Below are positions 9,541 to 59,280 of a stretch of 64,000 nt of DNA, piece by piece. The notes under the pieces were generated by a model. It was given only the letters and a program-made list of their open reading frames with translations. It did not search any database and was not told where the DNA came from. The DNA lies in the NCBI GenBank assembly GCA_022563195.1, contig JADFNV010000012.1, positions 1 to 64,000 of the forward strand. The letters are read 5' to 3'. This stretch comes from Pseudomonadota bacterium (lineage in GTDB: Bacteria; Pseudomonadota; Gammaproteobacteria; Steroidobacterales; Woeseiaceae). Position 1 is the stretch's first letter. Each line of letters opens with the position of its first letter. Position numbers and translations under genes: made by a program.

Positions 9541-9936
9541 CGCGATACCGCAATATTTGAACGTCGGCCCCGACACACGGGCACGATCCCGGGTATTTGC
9601 TCGCGCTTAAGCTCGCTCGGCGTCCTGCCTCGCTCGCATCGGCCTTCGCTTGCTTGGGCGTCCTGCGTCGCAGCGCTCCGGACGACGCGCGAGCAAACAC
9701 ACCGATACCGTGCCCCTGCTGAGCTTTGCGAAGAACATCCCGCCCCGGCCCGACGAAGATCGGAGGGCGGACACGATACGGTGGCTCGTCGAGCGTCGTC
9801 GAATCCGAGCGGAGCAGGGACAGCTAGAGCGAGGATTCGCGGATTGGAGCGAGACCAAGGATGTCGAAGCGACATTAAGCGAGAGGAGCTACCGTGTTGG
9901 GGCCGCCGTTCATATAATGGGGGCCGCGCCCGTGTG
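9541..9936 (+). repeat. Dispersed TIR element, copy A (composite)
   Basis: The full element spans 9575-9936. It opens with ACACGGGCACG followed by CGGGTATTTG at 9590-9599, and closes with an imperfect inverted version ending CGCCCGTGTG at 9936. The inside carries two GC-rich modules shared with copies B, C and D, including the hairpin formed by TTTGCTCGCGC and GCGCGAGCAAA and a well conserved block from about 9755 to 9900. Bases 9541-9577 are an inverted fragment of the element's right end, so this copy is composite. It fills the whole gap between two convergent genes. No transposase is encoded; the open frames inside shift between copies. Confidence 0.8.
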
Positions 9937-11789: not shown

Positions 11790-11803
11790 ACCAATCGGTA
11801 TCG

Positions 11804-11978
11804 TGCACAGAAGAGACCCCGTGGTCATCGGGGCGCCGAAGGCGCAACTCGCTCGGAAACGCTCAGGCAGAAGGACTGTTTACGGTGATTGGCTCTGGAG
11901 AGCGGCCCGACAGGGGGCCCACCGAAGGGGTACGTGGCTTTACAGCCACTGATCTCTCAGGTCTGATGGACAGAGGGG
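11804..11978 (+). promoter_or_regulatory. Tandem glycine riboswitch
   Basis: Two glycine aptamers lie in series upstream of gcvT. The first (about 11804-11880) has the core GCGCCGAAGGCGCAA and CTCAGGCAGAAGGACTG. The second (about 11891-11977) has CTCTGGAGAG, CACCGAAGGGG, CTCTCAGG and TGGACAGAGG. They are joined by a linker of about 10 bases, the usual spacing. These riboswitches sense glycine and normally turn on gcv expression. A terminator follows at once (11969-12008), giving a plausible expression platform. No open frame is needed to explain this leader. Confidence 0.93.
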
Positions 11979-20942: not shown

Positions 20943-20957
20943 CAGAATTAAGCCGCC

Positions 20958-21010
20958 CCGCGGACGGCATATTCCTCTCCCTCATGGCTCGCTGCGCTGC
21001 GCTTTACTTC
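20958..21010 (+). repeat. Short dispersed repeat (two-part), full copy
   Basis: Two adjacent blocks recur elsewhere in the window. The first (20958-20981, ending GGCATATTCCTCTCCC) is identical over 24 bases at 54568-54591. The second (20982-21010, with ATGGCTCGCTGCGCTGCG) is identical over 29 bases at 59223-59251. Here they are joined and lie against truncated copy B of the larger element. Confidence 0.7.
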
Positions 21011-21014
21011 GGTC

Positions 21015-21257
21015 GAAGAACATCCCGCCCTCGGTGCTGCTTAATTGTCGTGGACGAACGTCTCGCTCGGCGTCCCGACGAAGATCGCAGGGCGGCCACG
21101 ATACGGTGGCTCGTCGAGCGTCGTCGAATCCGAGCGGAGCAGGGACAGCGAGAGCGAGGATTCGCGGATTGGAGCGAGACAGGGACGTCGAAGCGACATT
21201 AAGCGAGAGGAGCTACCGTGTTGGGGCCGCCTTTCAGATAACGGTGACGTGCCCGAG
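21015..21257 (+). repeat. Dispersed TIR element, copy B (left-truncated)
   Basis: This copy lacks the left terminal repeat and the first GC-rich module. It enters the family near GAACATCCCGCCC and keeps the conserved block (about 21080-21225) and a right end CAGATAACGGTGACGTGCCCG. It lies between the M23 gene and the convergent DUF255 gene, in M23 orientation. A short dispersed repeat takes the place of the missing left part. The surrounding gap 20912-21312 holds nothing else recognisable. Confidence 0.75.
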
Positions 21258-21312
21258 TAGTTGAATCGTAATTCGTCGATCACGCAGTTCCGAGTTGTGG
21301 TCGAAATCGCTG

Positions 21313-25043: not shown

Positions 25044-25061
25044 TTATCGGACATCGTGGTA

Positions 25062-25139
25062 ATCGCCCGCATGGCGGGCTCCTACAACTGTCAATTCGAA
25101 GTTTGCAGCAGGTCTGTAGGAGCCCGCCATGCGGGCGAT
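25062..25139. repeat. REP doublet (REPIN)
   Basis: Two copies of a REP sequence face each other at 25062-25086 and 25115-25139. Each has GTAGGAG followed by the imperfect palindrome CCCGCCATGCGGG. The arms match over about 25 bases and are separated by 28. This is the typical REPIN arrangement moved by REP-associated tyrosine transposases, none of which is encoded in this window. It lies between thyA and folA and may protect mRNA ends or end transcription. Confidence 0.85.
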
Positions 25140-25159
25140 CCCAAAAGATAGAATTATTA

Positions 25160-37382: not shown

Positions 37383-37810
37383 ACTGTAGGAGCTCGCCGA
37401 CGGTCAGGACGACCTAATGTCGCGGAGCACAGGGATGTGCGAGAGCGACGAAAGGGCGATTACCCCGGTATCTGAACGGCGGCCCCGACACGGCAGCTCC
37501 TCTCGCTTAATGTCGCTTCGACGTCCCTGTCTCGCTCCAATCCGCGAATCCTCGCTTTCGCTGTCCCTGCTCCACTTGGATTCGACGACGCTCGACGAGC
37601 CACCGTATCGTGGCTGCCCTCCGATCTTCGTCGGGCCGGTGGGCGGGATTTTCCTCGCAAGACTCGGCAGGGGCGCGGGATCGGTGTGTTTGCTCGCGCG
37701 TCGTCCGAAGCGCAGTGACGCAGGACGCCGAAGCAAGCGGAGGCCGATGCGAGCGAGGCAGGACGCCGAGCGAGGTTAAGCGCGAGCAAATACCCGGTAA
37801 CGTGCCCGCG
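37383..37810 (-). repeat. Dispersed TIR element, copy C
   Basis: The element proper is 37455-37810 on the minus strand. Its left end (CGGGCACGTTACCGGGTATTTG on the minus strand, 37787-37810 region) and its right end (GTTCAGATACCGGGG) match the other copies, and both GC-rich modules are present. It follows rlpA and has rlpA orientation. Bases 37383-37454 carry a REP-like CTGTAGGAGC head and a small AGCACAGGGATGTGC palindrome. The whole gap 37328-37848 between dacA and rlpA is repeat or repeat-flanking sequence; no gene is supported. Confidence 0.8.
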
Positions 37811-37848
37811 CATCGGGATTGCCGCCACGGCGGGCGATTGCCACGAAG

Positions 37849-43186: not shown

Positions 43187-44066
43187 CCGGTTCGCCCGCC
43201 TCGCTATCGGCGTCGACAGTCGTCGTATTCGTAGCTGACCAGATAAGCATGACCTCACGGACCTGGTTGAGAGCTGACGACGGTATCGCCGTGACATCGG
43301 CAAACGGCTGCTGTGGCATACGATTGACGGTAGCGACGACAGCAACGGGGTATCCGGCCGAAAATTCACCGCCAAGGCCCGACGTTACCAGCAGGTCGCC
43401 CGGCTCAATGTCGGCATTATTAGGCAGGAACGGCAGATCGAGCCGGTCAAATTCGCCGGTGCCGATTGCGATCGTGCGCAAGCCGTTGCGACTTACCTGC
43501 ACAGGCAGGGCGTGACTCGGATCGCTGATCAGGATGGCCTGTGAGGTTGCCAATCCCGTCTTAATGACCTGGCCGACGACTCCATCGGCGTCGATAATGG
43601 ACTGGCCATCGTAAACTCCGTCGCGTCGGCCGATATCGATGACAAGGCTATGGCGGTACCGATTGGCATCGACGGCCATGATTTCGGCGACACGAATTTC
43701 ATCGCGATCATGCGGACGCGCCTCGAGCAGGGCACGTAGCCGAGCGTTTTCAGCTTCAAGGGCCGTGAATCGCTGTAGTCGGCCATTCGTCAGCAAGCGC
43801 TCTGTCTTCAGACGGCTGACCTCGAGTTGCAGCTCATGGCGATTGGCGGTGCTATCGCGTAACCAATGCCAAAACCTGAACGGAGCATCCACGACGACCT
43901 GAATCGGGTAAACGACAACACCGATGGTTCGCTGCACCGTGTTCATATAGTTTTTCTGATGATCGAGCACCATCAGCACGATACTCAGCGACATCAGGAT
44001 TAGGACCCGCATGCCAAGAGCGGGGCCGTATGCGGGATTGCTCTTAGGAGATTGGAAAGTGGCCAT
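43179..44066 (-). CDS. mreC: Rod-shape protein MreC
   Basis: A 295-residue bitopic protein with one N-terminal helix (VLILMSLSIVLMVLDH), a periplasmic coiled coil (about 70-115, RHELQLEVSRLKTERLL) and a beta-rich core that binds PBP2. The segments GVYDGQSIIDADGVVGQV and PGDLLVTSGLGGEFSAGYPVA are family hallmarks. It lies 45 bases after mreB in the standard mreBCD order. Confidence 0.95.
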   Translation of the reverse strand: MATFQSPKSNPAYGPALGMRVLILMSLSIVLMVLDHQKNYMNTVQRTIGVVVYPIQVVVDAPFRFWHWLRDSTANRHELQLEVSRLKTERLLTNGRLQRFTALEAENARLRALLEARPHDRDEIRVAEIMAVDANRYRHSLVIDIGRRDGVYDGQSIIDADGVVGQVIKTGLATSQAILISDPSHALPVQVSRNGLRTIAIGTGEFDRLDLPFLPNNADIEPGDLLVTSGLGGEFSAGYPVAVVATVNRMPQQPFADVTAIPSSALNQVREVMLIWSATNTTTVDADSEAGEPDD

Positions 44067-47074: not shown

Positions 47075-48513
47075 GCGGCCAGTGGGAAGTCGTCATTGGT
47101 CTCGAGATCCATGCGCAGCTCGCGACACGCAGCAAGATTTTTTCGAGTGCCGCGACGACTTACGGCGCCGAGCCCAACACGCAGGCCTGTCTTGTGGACC
47201 TTGGCTATCCGGGCGTGTTGCCAGTGCTGAACGAGGAAGTCATCCGCATGGCCTGCAAGTTCGGTCTCGCCGTAAACGCTACCGTTGCTCAACGCTCGGT
47301 GTTTGCGCGCAAGAATTACTTCTATCCGGACCTGCCCAAGGGCTACCAGATCAGCCAGTACGAATTGCCGATCGTCGAGCACGGCGAACTCTATATCAAA
47401 GATGCTGAAGGCAAAGACAAGCGCATCGGCATCACGCGCGCGCATCTCGAAGAGGATGCGGGCAAGTCGATCCACGAGGGCCTGGGCCGGTCGTCGGGCA
47501 TTGATCTCAATCGTGCTGGCACACCGTTGCTGGAAATCGTCTCCGAACCCGATTTGCGTTCGGCCAAAGAGGCGATCGCGTACATGCGCAAGATTCACAC
47601 GATCGTTCGTTATCTCGAGATCTCGGACGGCAACATGGCCGAAGGATCCTTCCGCTGTGATGCGAACGTGTCCGTGCGTCCGCGCGGCCAGAAGGAACTG
47701 GGCACACGCGCCGAGCTCAAGAATTTGAATTCATTCCGTTTCATCGAAAAAGCGATTAACTTCGAAGTCGAGCGCCAGATCGAGTTGCTCGAAGATGGCG
47801 GCAAAGTCGTGCAGGAGACGCGTCTGTACGATTCCGATCGCGACGAGACACGCACAATGCGCGCCAAGGAAGAAGCCAACGATTATCGCTACTTCCCGGA
47901 TCCGGATTTGTTACCGATCGAGATCGATGAGGAGTACATCGAGGCCGTGCGCCGCACCTTGCCCGAACTGCCGGACGCGAAGCAACAACGATTCGTCAAG
48001 GAATACAGCCTTAAGGCAAGTGATGCTGCCATTCTCACGGTCAACCGGGCCTTGGCCGATTATTTCGAAACTGCAGTCGCAGCAGGTACGGCCAAAGCAC
48101 GAACGGTCGCGAACTGGGTGATCGGCGATCTTGCGGCTGCACTCAATAAAGATGGCCTGGAGATTGAAACGAGCCGTATCGCCGCTGGCGATCTGTCCGG
48201 CTTACTTGACCGAATAACCGACAACACGATCTCCGGCAAAATAGCCAAGGAAGTGTTCGACGCCATGTGGGCCGGCGAGGGCACGGCCGACGAGATCATC
48301 GAGGCGCGTGGCCTCAAACAAATCACTGACACGTCGGCGATCGAAGCTGTGGTCGACGAGGTCATCGCTGCCAATCCTACGCAGGTCGCCGAATACCAGG
48401 CGGGCAAGGACAAGCTGATCGGCTTCTTCGTCGGTCAGGTCATGAAAGAGACGGGCGGCAAGGCCAATCCCGGCCAGGTCAACGCGATCCTCAAAAAGAA
48501 ACTCGCCAGGTAA
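47071..48513 (+). CDS. gatB: Asp-tRNA(Asn)/Glu-tRNA(Gln) amidotransferase subunit B
   Basis: A 480-residue subunit that activates the misacylated tRNA's side-chain carboxylate with ATP and performs transamidation. The signature [18 protein letters not shown] opens the protein, with [18 protein letters not shown] and [23 protein letters not shown], and a C-terminal YqeY-like domain (about 330-480). GTG 47071 has GGAGG seven bases upstream and overlaps the gatA stop; an ATG at 47053 is possible but has no ribosome site. Confidence 0.95.
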
Positions 48514-48548
48514 AGCTCTGCCGGCGCCCGCTGTAGGAAGAACCCGTC

Positions 48549-48938
48549 ACACGGGCACGTCATCGGGTATTTGCTCGCGCTTAACCTCGCTCGCATCGGC
48601 CTGCGCTTGCTTGGGCGTCCTGCGTCGCAGCGCTCCGGACGACGCGCGAGCAAACACACCGATTTCGCGCCCCTGCCGAGTCGTGCGCGGAACATCCCGC
48701 CCGCCGGCCCCACGAAGATCGGAGGGCGGACACGATACGGTGGCTCGTCGAGCGTCGTCGAATCCGAGCGGAGCAGGGACAGCGAGAGCGAGGATTCGCG
48801 GATTGGAGCGAGACAGGGATGTCGACGCGACATTGAGCTCGAGGAGCCACCGTGTCGGGGCCGCCGTGCTCGACAAATACCCGGTGGCGTGCCCGTGTGT
48901 AGGGACCGCCTTTCAGATAACGGTGACGTGCCCGTGTG
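48549..48938 (+). repeat. Dispersed TIR element, copy D
   Basis: This is the clearest copy. The left end (ACACGGGCACGTCATCGG, 48549-48566, continuing to TATTTG at 48573) and right end (48914-48938, ending GACGTGCCCGTGTG) form a roughly 24-bp imperfect terminal inverted repeat. A second inverted left end lies inside at 48874-48898, so the right side is doubled. Both GC-rich modules are present; a 17-base segment found in A and C is missing near 48590. It follows gatB in the same orientation, flanked by CTGTAGG (48530) and CCTACAG (48945), and an eight-T run follows at 48955. The gap 48514-49054 holds this element plus the next gene's promoter. Confidence 0.85.
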
Positions 48939-49013
48939 ACTGGCCCCTACAGTTATTTTTTTTGGACAAAGAGCACGTAGCCGATAGCGTGACCGCACGG
49001 CCGTGTGCTAGGC

Positions 49014-57823: not shown

Positions 57824-59188
57824 ATGCAGGTTTATTCCAATATTCTGGACATGGTGGGTAAGACACCAATGCTCGAGATCAGGCGTCTCGACACGGGCCC
57901 CTGCCAGCTTTTTCTCAAGCTCGAACTGTTGAATCCAGGTGGTTCGGTCAAGGATCGAATCGGCATCTCGATGATTGAAGAGGCCGAGAAGCGCGGCGAC
58001 ATCAAGCCGGGCGATACGCTCGTCGAGGCGACGGCGGGTAACACGGGTATCGGTCTCGCGCTCGTCGCGGGCCAGAAAGGCTATCGGATGATCCTGGTAT
58101 TGCCGGACAAAATGAGCCAGGAAAAGATTTTCAACCTGCGCGCAATGGGCGCGGAAGTCGTTTTAACACGGTCCGATGTCAGCAAGGGACACCCCGAATA
58201 CTACCAGGACCTCGGTAAACGAATCGCTGCGGAGCAGGGCGCCTTTTTCATCAACCAGTTCGGCAATGACGACAATCCGCTCGCACATGAGCAGACCACG
58301 ATGCCCGAGATTCTCGAGCAGATGCAGGGCAAGCTCGATGCGATTGTTCTGGGCGTAGGTTCCAGTGGCACGGTAACCGGCATCTGCAGGTACCTGACCG
58401 AGCACGCTCCGAATGTCGAAGTGATTCTTGCCGACCCGGTCGGCTCGATACTTGCCGACTATGTCAATACGGGCGAGCTGAAAGACAAAAGCAGCAGCTG
58501 GCTGGTCGAAGGAATCGGCGAGGACTTCATTCCATCAATCGCCGATTTTTCGAAGGTGACGAAGGCATATGCGATCACCGATGCAGAGTCGTTCGCTACC
58601 GCGCGCGAATTACTCAAGGTCGAAGGAGTTCTTGCAGGCTCGTCGACGGGTACTCTGCTGGCTGCCGCACTCAAGTACTGCCACGAGCAGACGGTAGCGA
58701 AACGTGTCGTGACCTTTGCGGCCGATACTGGCAACAAGTACTTGTCCAAGCTATACAACGATTTCTGGATGGAGGATCAGGGCTTCATCCAGCGCGAGCA
58801 ATTCGATGATCTGCGCGACCTGATCGGCCGCCTGCACGGAGAACAGGCAACCATTACCGTGGGCCCGACCGATGTACTGACGACAGCACACAACCGGCTT
58901 CGCAACGCGGGATTTTCACAATTGCCGGTCATGGAGGACGGCAAACTGGTCGGCATCGTGACCGAAGATACAATCATTCAACACGTCTTCGGCAAACCCG
59001 AGTTGATGAATTCGGTGGTGGCCGACTCGATGCAGACAGCGTTTATCAAGCTCGACAAAGACACCAGCATTAACAATCTTGTTTCGCTGCTGAGCGCGCA
59101 ACCGTGTGCAGCCATTCTGGACGGCGACGAGTTTCTCGGCCTGATTACGCGCTCCGACGTTCTCAACTACCTGCGCCGGCAATTGTAG
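57824..59188 (+). CDS. cbs: Cystathionine beta-synthase
   Basis: A 454-residue PLP enzyme that joins serine and homocysteine to cystathionine, the entry to transsulfuration. PLP lysine is in LNPGGSVKDRIG near residue 44, the ATAGNTGIGLAL and GSSGTVTGICRY loops bind the cofactor, and two CBS domains occupy about 335-454. The heme-binding N-terminal extension of animal enzymes is absent. ATG 57824 fits the family start; 61 upstream residues in frame are not family-like and run over prmC. It draws on homocysteine that MetH also uses. Confidence 0.92.
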   Translation: MQVYSNILDMVGKTPMLEIRRLDTGPCQLFLKLELLNPGGSVKDRIGISMIEEAEKRGDIKPGDTLVEATAGNTGIGLALVAGQKGYRMILVLPDKMSQEKIFNLRAMGAEVVLTRSDVSKGHPEYYQDLGKRIAAEQGAFFINQFGNDDNPLAHEQTTMPEILEQMQGKLDAIVLGVGSSGTVTGICRYLTEHAPNVEVILADPVGSILADYVNTGELKDKSSSWLVEGIGEDFIPSIADFSKVTKAYAITDAESFATARELLKVEGVLAGSSTGTLLAAALKYCHEQTVAKRVVTFAADTGNKYLSKLYNDFWMEDQGFIQREQFDDLRDLIGRLHGEQATITVGPTDVLTTAHNRLRNAGFSQLPVMEDGKLVGIVTEDTIIQHVFGKPELMNSVVADSMQTAFIKLDKDTSINNLVSLLSAQPCAAILDGDEFLGLITRSDVLNYLRRQL

Positions 59189-59193
59189 GTGCG

Positions 59194-59280
59194 TTAGAGC
59201 GCGGGCGGCGCATTTGTAATCGTCATGGCTCGCTGCGCTGCGCTTTACTTCCGCTTCCAAAAGCCCCACCCGCGCTCTAA
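59194..59280. repeat. Inverted repeat enclosing a short dispersed repeat
   Basis: TTAGAGCGCGGG (59194-59205) and CCCGCGCTCTAA (59269-59280) form perfect 12-bp arms. The loop contains the 29-base block 59223-59251, identical to 20982-21010. It sits between convergent cbs and prfA, where it could serve as a bidirectional terminator or be a small inserted element. Confidence 0.65.

Follow-up and report, generated by a model that had tools for sequence, protein, structure and literature searches.

The window examined here, that is, the whole 64,000-nucleotide stretch of DNA, carries at positions 48,549 to 48,938 a repeat that the first-pass annotation described as one of four dispersed copies of a 360-390 bp element. 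The four copies are confirmed: a BLAST search with positions 48501-48990 retrieves the other three copies, at 9569-9909 (+), 37476-37808 (-) and 21047-21258 (+), with identities of 87.2%, 87.1% and 86.3% in that order. Protein coding was considered and rejected, as open reading frames cross the copies but vary in length and strand, and single-base indels between units would break the frame (a judgement made by reading the copies). Elsewhere in the window, Rfam identifies a 6S RNA (2240-2425, -) and a glycine riboswitch aptamer (11798-11888, +).

A covariance model splits the four repeats into seven strong matches and gives two further weak ones, each repeat being one or two units of approximately 147 nt. 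The two modules of the 360-390 bp element are homologous, and since one model fits both, read on opposite strands, the element is a head-to-head pair of units. Each of the two modules also occurs alone, as seen on reading the copies, and the spacer within the composites measures 36-45 bp in 11 of 12 cases and 3 bp in the other. In the 48549 copy, a B-type unit at 48721-48870 (sense strand +; model R2, 109.4 bits, E 5e-30) lies head-to-head with a shortened A'-type unit at 48548-48676 (sense strand -; R2, 114 bits). The B unit carries the arm-1 tip GC-AGGGACA-GC at 48773-48783 (+) and the arm-2 hairpin GAC-AGGGAT-GTC at 48812-48823 (+), while the arm-1 tip of the A' unit, GCGACGCAGGACGC, is located at 48615-48628 (-), all three positions being read from the sequence. 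The arm-2 hairpin of this A' unit is missing, and the unit holds no ANGGA hairpin with a 3-bp stem.

The left end of the 48549 element is the 3' arm of its first unit, and an inverted remnant of this outer arm, previously taken for the right terminal inverted repeat, is found at 48874-48899 (+; BLAST self match to 48573-48548). The remnant is clear at this place; at the other three copies in the window it is, by reading, degraded or missing. Hence, the idea that the 360-390 bp element as a whole has terminal inverted repeats is not borne out, the ends differing between copies and species. The internal hairpins that had been listed are present: TTTGCTCGCGC with GCGCGAGCAAA belongs to the first unit's terminal stem, and CGAATCC with GGATTCG to arm 1 of the second. 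A REP-type (GTAG) head at 48938-48951 (-; consensus scan with up to three mismatches) lies at the cassette's outer edge.

The same arrangement recurs at two of the other sites, where an A' unit at 9574-9719 (-; R2, 151.7 bits) is paired with a B unit at 9762-9912 (+; 107.8 bits) that is without a 3-bp ANGGA hairpin, and a B unit at 37474-37625 (-; 106.5 bits) with an A' unit at 37667-37812 (+; 145.8 bits). The copy at 21015, originally called truncated, indeed consists of the second module alone, a B unit at 21087-21236 (+; 117.3 bits); however, this solitary form recurs elsewhere in the same genome, and the unit is present at the orthologous place in the sister genome G032 (loci L031 and L212). 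The two weak matches are at 20948-21043 (-; R2, 18.3 bits, E 0.0015), either a decayed unit or another hairpin module, and at 43634-43792 (E 0.065). Related hairpin modules with a GGCTCGCTGCGCTGCGCTTTA-like word, often 5' of single units, were observed at 20948-21043, at approximately 59183-59260, and in the flanks of loci L013, L017, L018, L030 and L037.

The suggestion of a very abundant family proved accurate. The draft genome to which the window belongs (G000; 3.03 Mb, 87 contigs, 83% complete) yields 40 matches in a DNA search (E 5.4e-215 to 1.6e-4) and 41 with covariance model R1, which also finds members in 23 of the 73 genus genomes. Model R2, constructed from 112 elements, extends the range to at least 52 of 296 genomes and at least 13 of 68 genera of the order. 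These are lower bounds, as 10 candidates per genome were scored in searches over more than 40 genomes (R2 across the order; 7 for RF01731), and the model E-values are rough. When more candidates were scored in ten selected order-level genomes, 5 to 41 matches were obtained in each, 203 in total, and the single-contig genomes G153 and G137 hold 20 and 11 matches. A core pattern search of genome contigs returned 37 stretches, of which 29 are titled Woeseiaceae, seven Proteobacteria (all JADFKA) and one Gammaproteobacteria; the Woeseiaceae are a group common in marine sediments (PMC7082342). A limited literature search returned no account of this repeat family.

The reading of the unit as a structured RNA is strongly supported by its pattern of substitution. 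In the predicted architecture, two arms are enclosed by a long terminal stem whose sequence changes quickly. Across 69 diverse elements, in an alignment fitted to the model, 95.4% of cells pair and 27 of 32 pairs have changed on both sides, compared to an average of 20.4 for shuffled controls and 12-17 for structures slid along the alignment; none of 500 shuffles reached the observed value in any of five measures. The external stem enclosing both arms is present as helices 1-4 of alignment A5, where 93-99% of cells are paired and every pair has changed on both sides. Conservation is lowest in the terminal sequences and highest in the middle; the sequences of alignment A2, from which five of 44 A-type copies were left out (inserts or rearrangements), fit the DNA pattern over columns ~87-116, so that invariance there is built in.

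The terminal arms diverge between copies, yet remain complementary. The arms of one and the same element score 15.4 against each other, whereas arms swapped between elements score 8.2 on average and 9.2 at most (200 swaps). This effect persists when G000, G074 and G032 are set aside (16.0 versus a maximum of 9.5; 61 elements) and inside seven similar genomes (16.4 versus 12.3; 36 elements), and it is narrow in G066 alone (14.6 versus 13.6; 11 elements). Mismatches in the terminal stem of the 112 elements, counted with a symmetric aligner that has no preference for G.U, comprise 243 G.U, 23 A.C and 203 others, with the proviso that related copies share mismatches and the counts are not independent. 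This excess fixes the sense strand, as neither palindrome correction nor mutation without selection distinguishes the strands, and both would be expected to leave G.U and A.C about equal. Outside G000 the ratio is 124 to 11, and G.U outnumbers A.C in 18 of 23 genomes, with the reverse in two and a tie in three. Furthermore, of the two strands the sense strand has the better fold in 38 of 39 elements and in 50 of 55 order-level elements (57 matches minus two identical ones); it does not in the remaining five of the 55, nor in two of 31 divergent copies.

These data bear on the notion that the covariation is an artefact of quasi-palindrome correction, in which template switching during replication keeps the arms complementary in the absence of any selected function. 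Such a process would account for terminal arms of 25-30 bp that are near-perfect palindromes, yet almost wholly different between loci L141 and L186 of genome G090. Being strand-blind, it would not yield 243 G.U to 23 A.C, and it would not preserve internal loops and ANGGA tips across families; the asymmetry largely refutes it, and we regard it as very improbable.

The units occupy a clear genomic position. Both neighbours could be called for 100 genus elements: the flanking genes converge in 65 cases, run in tandem in 31 (the element being antisense in 20 and sense in 11) and diverge in four; these calls derive from a crude ORF caller, and paired units were counted singly. As background, long loci contain 65 gaps measuring 120 bp or more, some occupied by units, and 17 of these gaps are convergent (65/100 versus 17/65, P 1.3e-6); for adjacent gene pairs within the window, the figure is 10 of 54. 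At the order level, 22 of 48 elements are convergent. Pairs are oriented head-to-head in all 12 cases in G000 and, for neighbouring units less than 500 bp apart among the matches listed, in nine of nine order-level pairs and four of five RF01731 pairs. This count covers 150 of the 203 order-level and 54 of the 81 listed RF01731 matches, and the other 27, by eye, are never less than 500 bp apart. Owing to the head-to-head orientation, the transcript of each convergent gene would carry one sense unit at its distal end.

These features raise the question as to whether the unit is a 3'-end device for convergent genes, whereby a very stable hairpin would end or protect the mRNA before the opposing gene and the tips would serve folding or some protein other than CsrA. 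Indeed, of the 106 elements for which a downstream gene was called, 90 are faced by one on the opposite strand, often at a distance of 20-50 bp, and the provision of one sense unit to each convergent gene, seen in all G000 pairs and in all nine order-level pairs listed, fits this idea. However, scanning the four window copies for terminators gave no hit at any unit's 3' end, and the single hits at 9757-9739 and 20968-20952 lie elsewhere; the only run of six or more T or A at these copies is a T8 at 48956-48963, some 85 bp past the unit. Termination, moreover, does not need the ANGGA loop letters with a free N, and convergent gaps may be just the safest landing sites, the order-level proportion being less than half. 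We consider such a 3'-end device unlikely.

The window also offers a view of how the units may have spread. The stretch 37397-37830 is absent from the sister genome G032, where alignment blocks stop at 37396 and restart at 37831 (junction letters compared): G032 shows one REP hairpin with no cassette in it, while in G000 the cassette sits inside the REP loop, the left half of the hosting hairpin (GTAG head) being at 37385-37398 (+). No target duplication was seen at this clean empty site. A contig of G074 has, in the approximately 130 bp it holds past the gene, a REP with another hairpin and no unit. At 9575 and 48549, G032 carries shorter, rearranged versions. REP heads are concentrated around cassettes, with 14 in the 16.9 kb within 300 bp of cassettes versus one in 67.0 kb elsewhere; a head is recognisable at 11 of 29 cassettes (on both sides in one, on one side in ten), and 12 of 13 flanking heads point inward.

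Several smaller hairpins were noted in this REP landscape. The segment 37397-37473 and the flanks of L016 and L022 hold another REP-loop hairpin module, GGAGCACAGGGATGTGCGAGAGCGAC with GCACA-GGGA-TGTGC, which resembles a CsrA site. At approximately 25050-25142, two REP sequences GTAGGAGCCCGCCATGCGGGCGAT lie in opposite orientation without a large insert. A 21-bp hairpin, ACCTCGGTCCCGCTTGACGGG, is precisely inserted just before AGC in three otherwise intact units (L103, 2758-2937; L109, 1412-1591 and 3763-3942), and in L094 (72-251) it replaces the middle of the unit (compare L055 and L100). A similar hairpin also occurs in REP loops, and it is possibly a very small mobile hairpin.

A purely DNA-level repeat of MITE or REPIN-like type, in which a single-stranded hairpin is moved by a TnpA/RAYT-type or other transposase and has no role as RNA, would explain the copy number, the empty site inside a REP, and the enrichment and inward orientation of REP heads near cassettes. 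The Y1 transposase domain PF01797 was found in six of seven element-bearing versus eight of 18 element-free genomes among the 25 genus genomes searched (Fisher P 0.09), which hints weakly at a transposase of the RAYT or Y1 type; such an enzyme, PF01797 being somewhat commoner in element-bearing genomes, remains a rival as an explanation of movement. Conversely, G000, the richest genome of the genus in copies, has no PF01797 match (at 83% completeness), the terminal sequences that a transposase would be expected to target are the least conserved, and most cassettes are without a recognisable REP head. The G.U/A.C asymmetry requires a strand-specific, single-stranded form, although transposon single-stranded DNA could also yield it and the point is not decisive. 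We rate a DNA-level repeat without an RNA role as improbable. Two specific versions were rejected: a MITE with fixed terminal inverted repeats and target duplication, as the ends are the most variable part and no duplication occurs at the clean empty site, and a RAYT-driven REPIN, as G000 is without PF01797 and REP heads bound the cassette on both sides in only one of 29 cases. The first-pass annotation had proposed either a mobile element or a structured RNA. The latter is the better supported, and spread by copying is backed by the copy number and one clean empty site, while no mobilising enzyme, fixed ends or target duplication emerged.

The tips of the two arms suggest what the structured RNA may bind. 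Arm 2 ends in a hairpin with a freely changing stem (GGC/GCC, GAC/GTC, GCC/GGC, GCCCGCC/GGCGGGC and others), whose loop keeps A(N)GGA closed by a C-G pair, N being A, C, G, T or absent. Arm 1 has a similar tip, often with a closing stem of only 2 bp; in A' units this stem is short. A CA(N)GGANG hairpin of at least 3 bp is found on the sense strand in 42 of 53 genus elements lying outside the search pattern and in 53 of 55 order-level elements, and on the reverse strand in none of 112 genus and none of 55 order-level elements. The search models contain the loop columns and so favour loop-bearing elements, whereas the changing stems and the free N were not imposed. The 3-bp hairpin is absent in 11 of the 53 pattern-free genus elements, including 48548-48676 and 9762-9912. 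The longer CsrA consensus reads CANGGANG. ANGGA is the motif named for CsrA (PMC9788540), and the C-A(N)GGA-N-G tips look like landing sites of the CsrA/RsmA type. The repeat family is, in our view, most likely CsrA-binding.

The distribution of the putative partner is less clear-cut. G000 encodes csrA, as do 56 of the 73 genus genomes. So do 31 of 33 genomes, most of them complete, that were selected among those with this RNA or an RF01731 match, including all four single-contig ones; among these 33, a CsrA match is absent in G051 and G120. Within the genus, eight of 23 element-bearing draft genomes (G003, G026, G032, G035, G064, G067, G074 and G095) have no CsrA match. Their completeness is 73-95%, with three at 90-95%, and about 2.9 absences are predicted from completeness. 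Such an absence occurs in eight of 23 genomes with the element versus nine of 50 without it (Fisher P 0.14), which is not the association predicted for a CsrA partner.

On balance, we favour the interpretation that the repeat is a structured RNA element of ~147 nt, similar to TwoAYGGAY and present in tens of copies, which probably presents its tips to CsrA and spreads into hairpin-rich sites. According to this model, the transcript of a flanking gene would carry the unit in its 3' end, and the two tips, ~38 nt apart in A' units, would meet both RNA-binding faces of one CsrA/RsmA dimer. Counting against this model, no promoter-like site was found at the four window copies. The dozens of copies might then jointly act as a CsrA sink, or each might recruit CsrA to its own mRNA 3' end. 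Units would spread singly or as head-to-head pairs, being copied into hairpin-rich REP sites between convergent genes. A bolder extension, conceivable though doubtful in our estimation, is a self-spreading CsrA sponge: copy number would set the level of free CsrA, titration would be spread over dozens of intergenic loci instead of a few CsrB-type sRNAs, and head-to-head pairs would serve both convergent genes. With tens of copies in a genome, strong covariation, a defined strand and a clear genomic location, this branch renders the CsrA proposal directly testable. In broader terms, ordinary-looking palindromic intergenic repeats can be structured RNA so far undetected by Rfam, in this instance in relatives of Woeseiaceae.

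The closest known family is Rfam TwoAYGGAY (RF01731, clan CL00106), which is named in a table by Weinberg 2010 (PMC2864571). Gardner and Eldai (2014; PMC4333381) proposed that it binds CsrA and noted two tandem G-A motifs within a single stem; no test of the TwoAYGGAY-CsrA link was found in the literature consulted. The RF01731 model (gathering score 43 bits) has no match in the whole window, in copy 48549 at E up to 5, in L009 and L021 at E up to 1, or in G000 at E 0.001. Likewise, no Rfam family matches the window repeats at its gathering score, copy 48549 giving nothing better than E 3. As the Rfam model misses them, the window units are best viewed as a divergent branch resembling TwoAYGGAY and not as certified members. 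The first-pass annotation had not recognised a named family, and a link to one exists only indirectly: the window copies do not reach RF01731, but the order-level family member L250, from another genome, does so at 44.6 bits (the single such case in a scan of 20 loci). When E values up to 1 are admitted, the second unit of L250 scores 38.5 bits and L249 35.8 bits. In the opposite direction, five of the 31 RF01731 loci are detected by R2 with E between 1.9e-4 and 7e-3, the others falling short of E < 0.01.

The likeness lies in the fold. RF01731 loci adopt a similar external stem and arms with ANGGA tips, with two A(N)GGA tips in nine of 13 readable loci and one in four of 13 (three of 16 being unreadable). 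In some gammaproteobacteria they also occur in several copies per genome, with at least seven matches each in G329, G390, G462, G544, G572 and G665. The loops of the window copies, in contrast, read AGGAC, AGGGAY or AAGGAY and not AYGGAY. The units in the window are two-armed, with tips of a looser form (AGGAC, AGGGAY) and in some cases no 3-bp hairpin; among order-level members, both AUGGAY and ACGGAY are seen. Next to the ANGGA hairpin, one or more GA/GA steps are present in 92 of the 112 genus elements and in 35 of the 55 from the order level, two steps in 84 and five, and none on the reverse strand. Arm 2 thus has two flanking steps in 84 of 112 genus elements, whereas only three of 24 RF01731 loci have even one, a pass rate so low that this simple test may not measure the published motif.

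The CsrA-sequestering sRNAs of the CsrB and RsmX/Y/Z type have the ANGGA motif in common with the present family (PMC9788540; PMC3791407). The latter, however, has approximately two sites per unit, dozens of genomic copies and no promoter-like site at the window copies, and the window has no Rfam match to CsrB or Rsm families. Finally, REP, BIME and REPIN (GTAG) sequences are likewise intergenic palindromes near gene ends that form head-to-head dimers (PMC3733652; REPINs, PMC3116915), and G-T pairing in REP-type repeats has been taken as a sign of transcription (PMC3733652). REPs measure 20-40 bp, whereas the units described here are of ~147 nt with two structured arms, and the REP is in this case the surrounding site, clearly so at 37385-37830.
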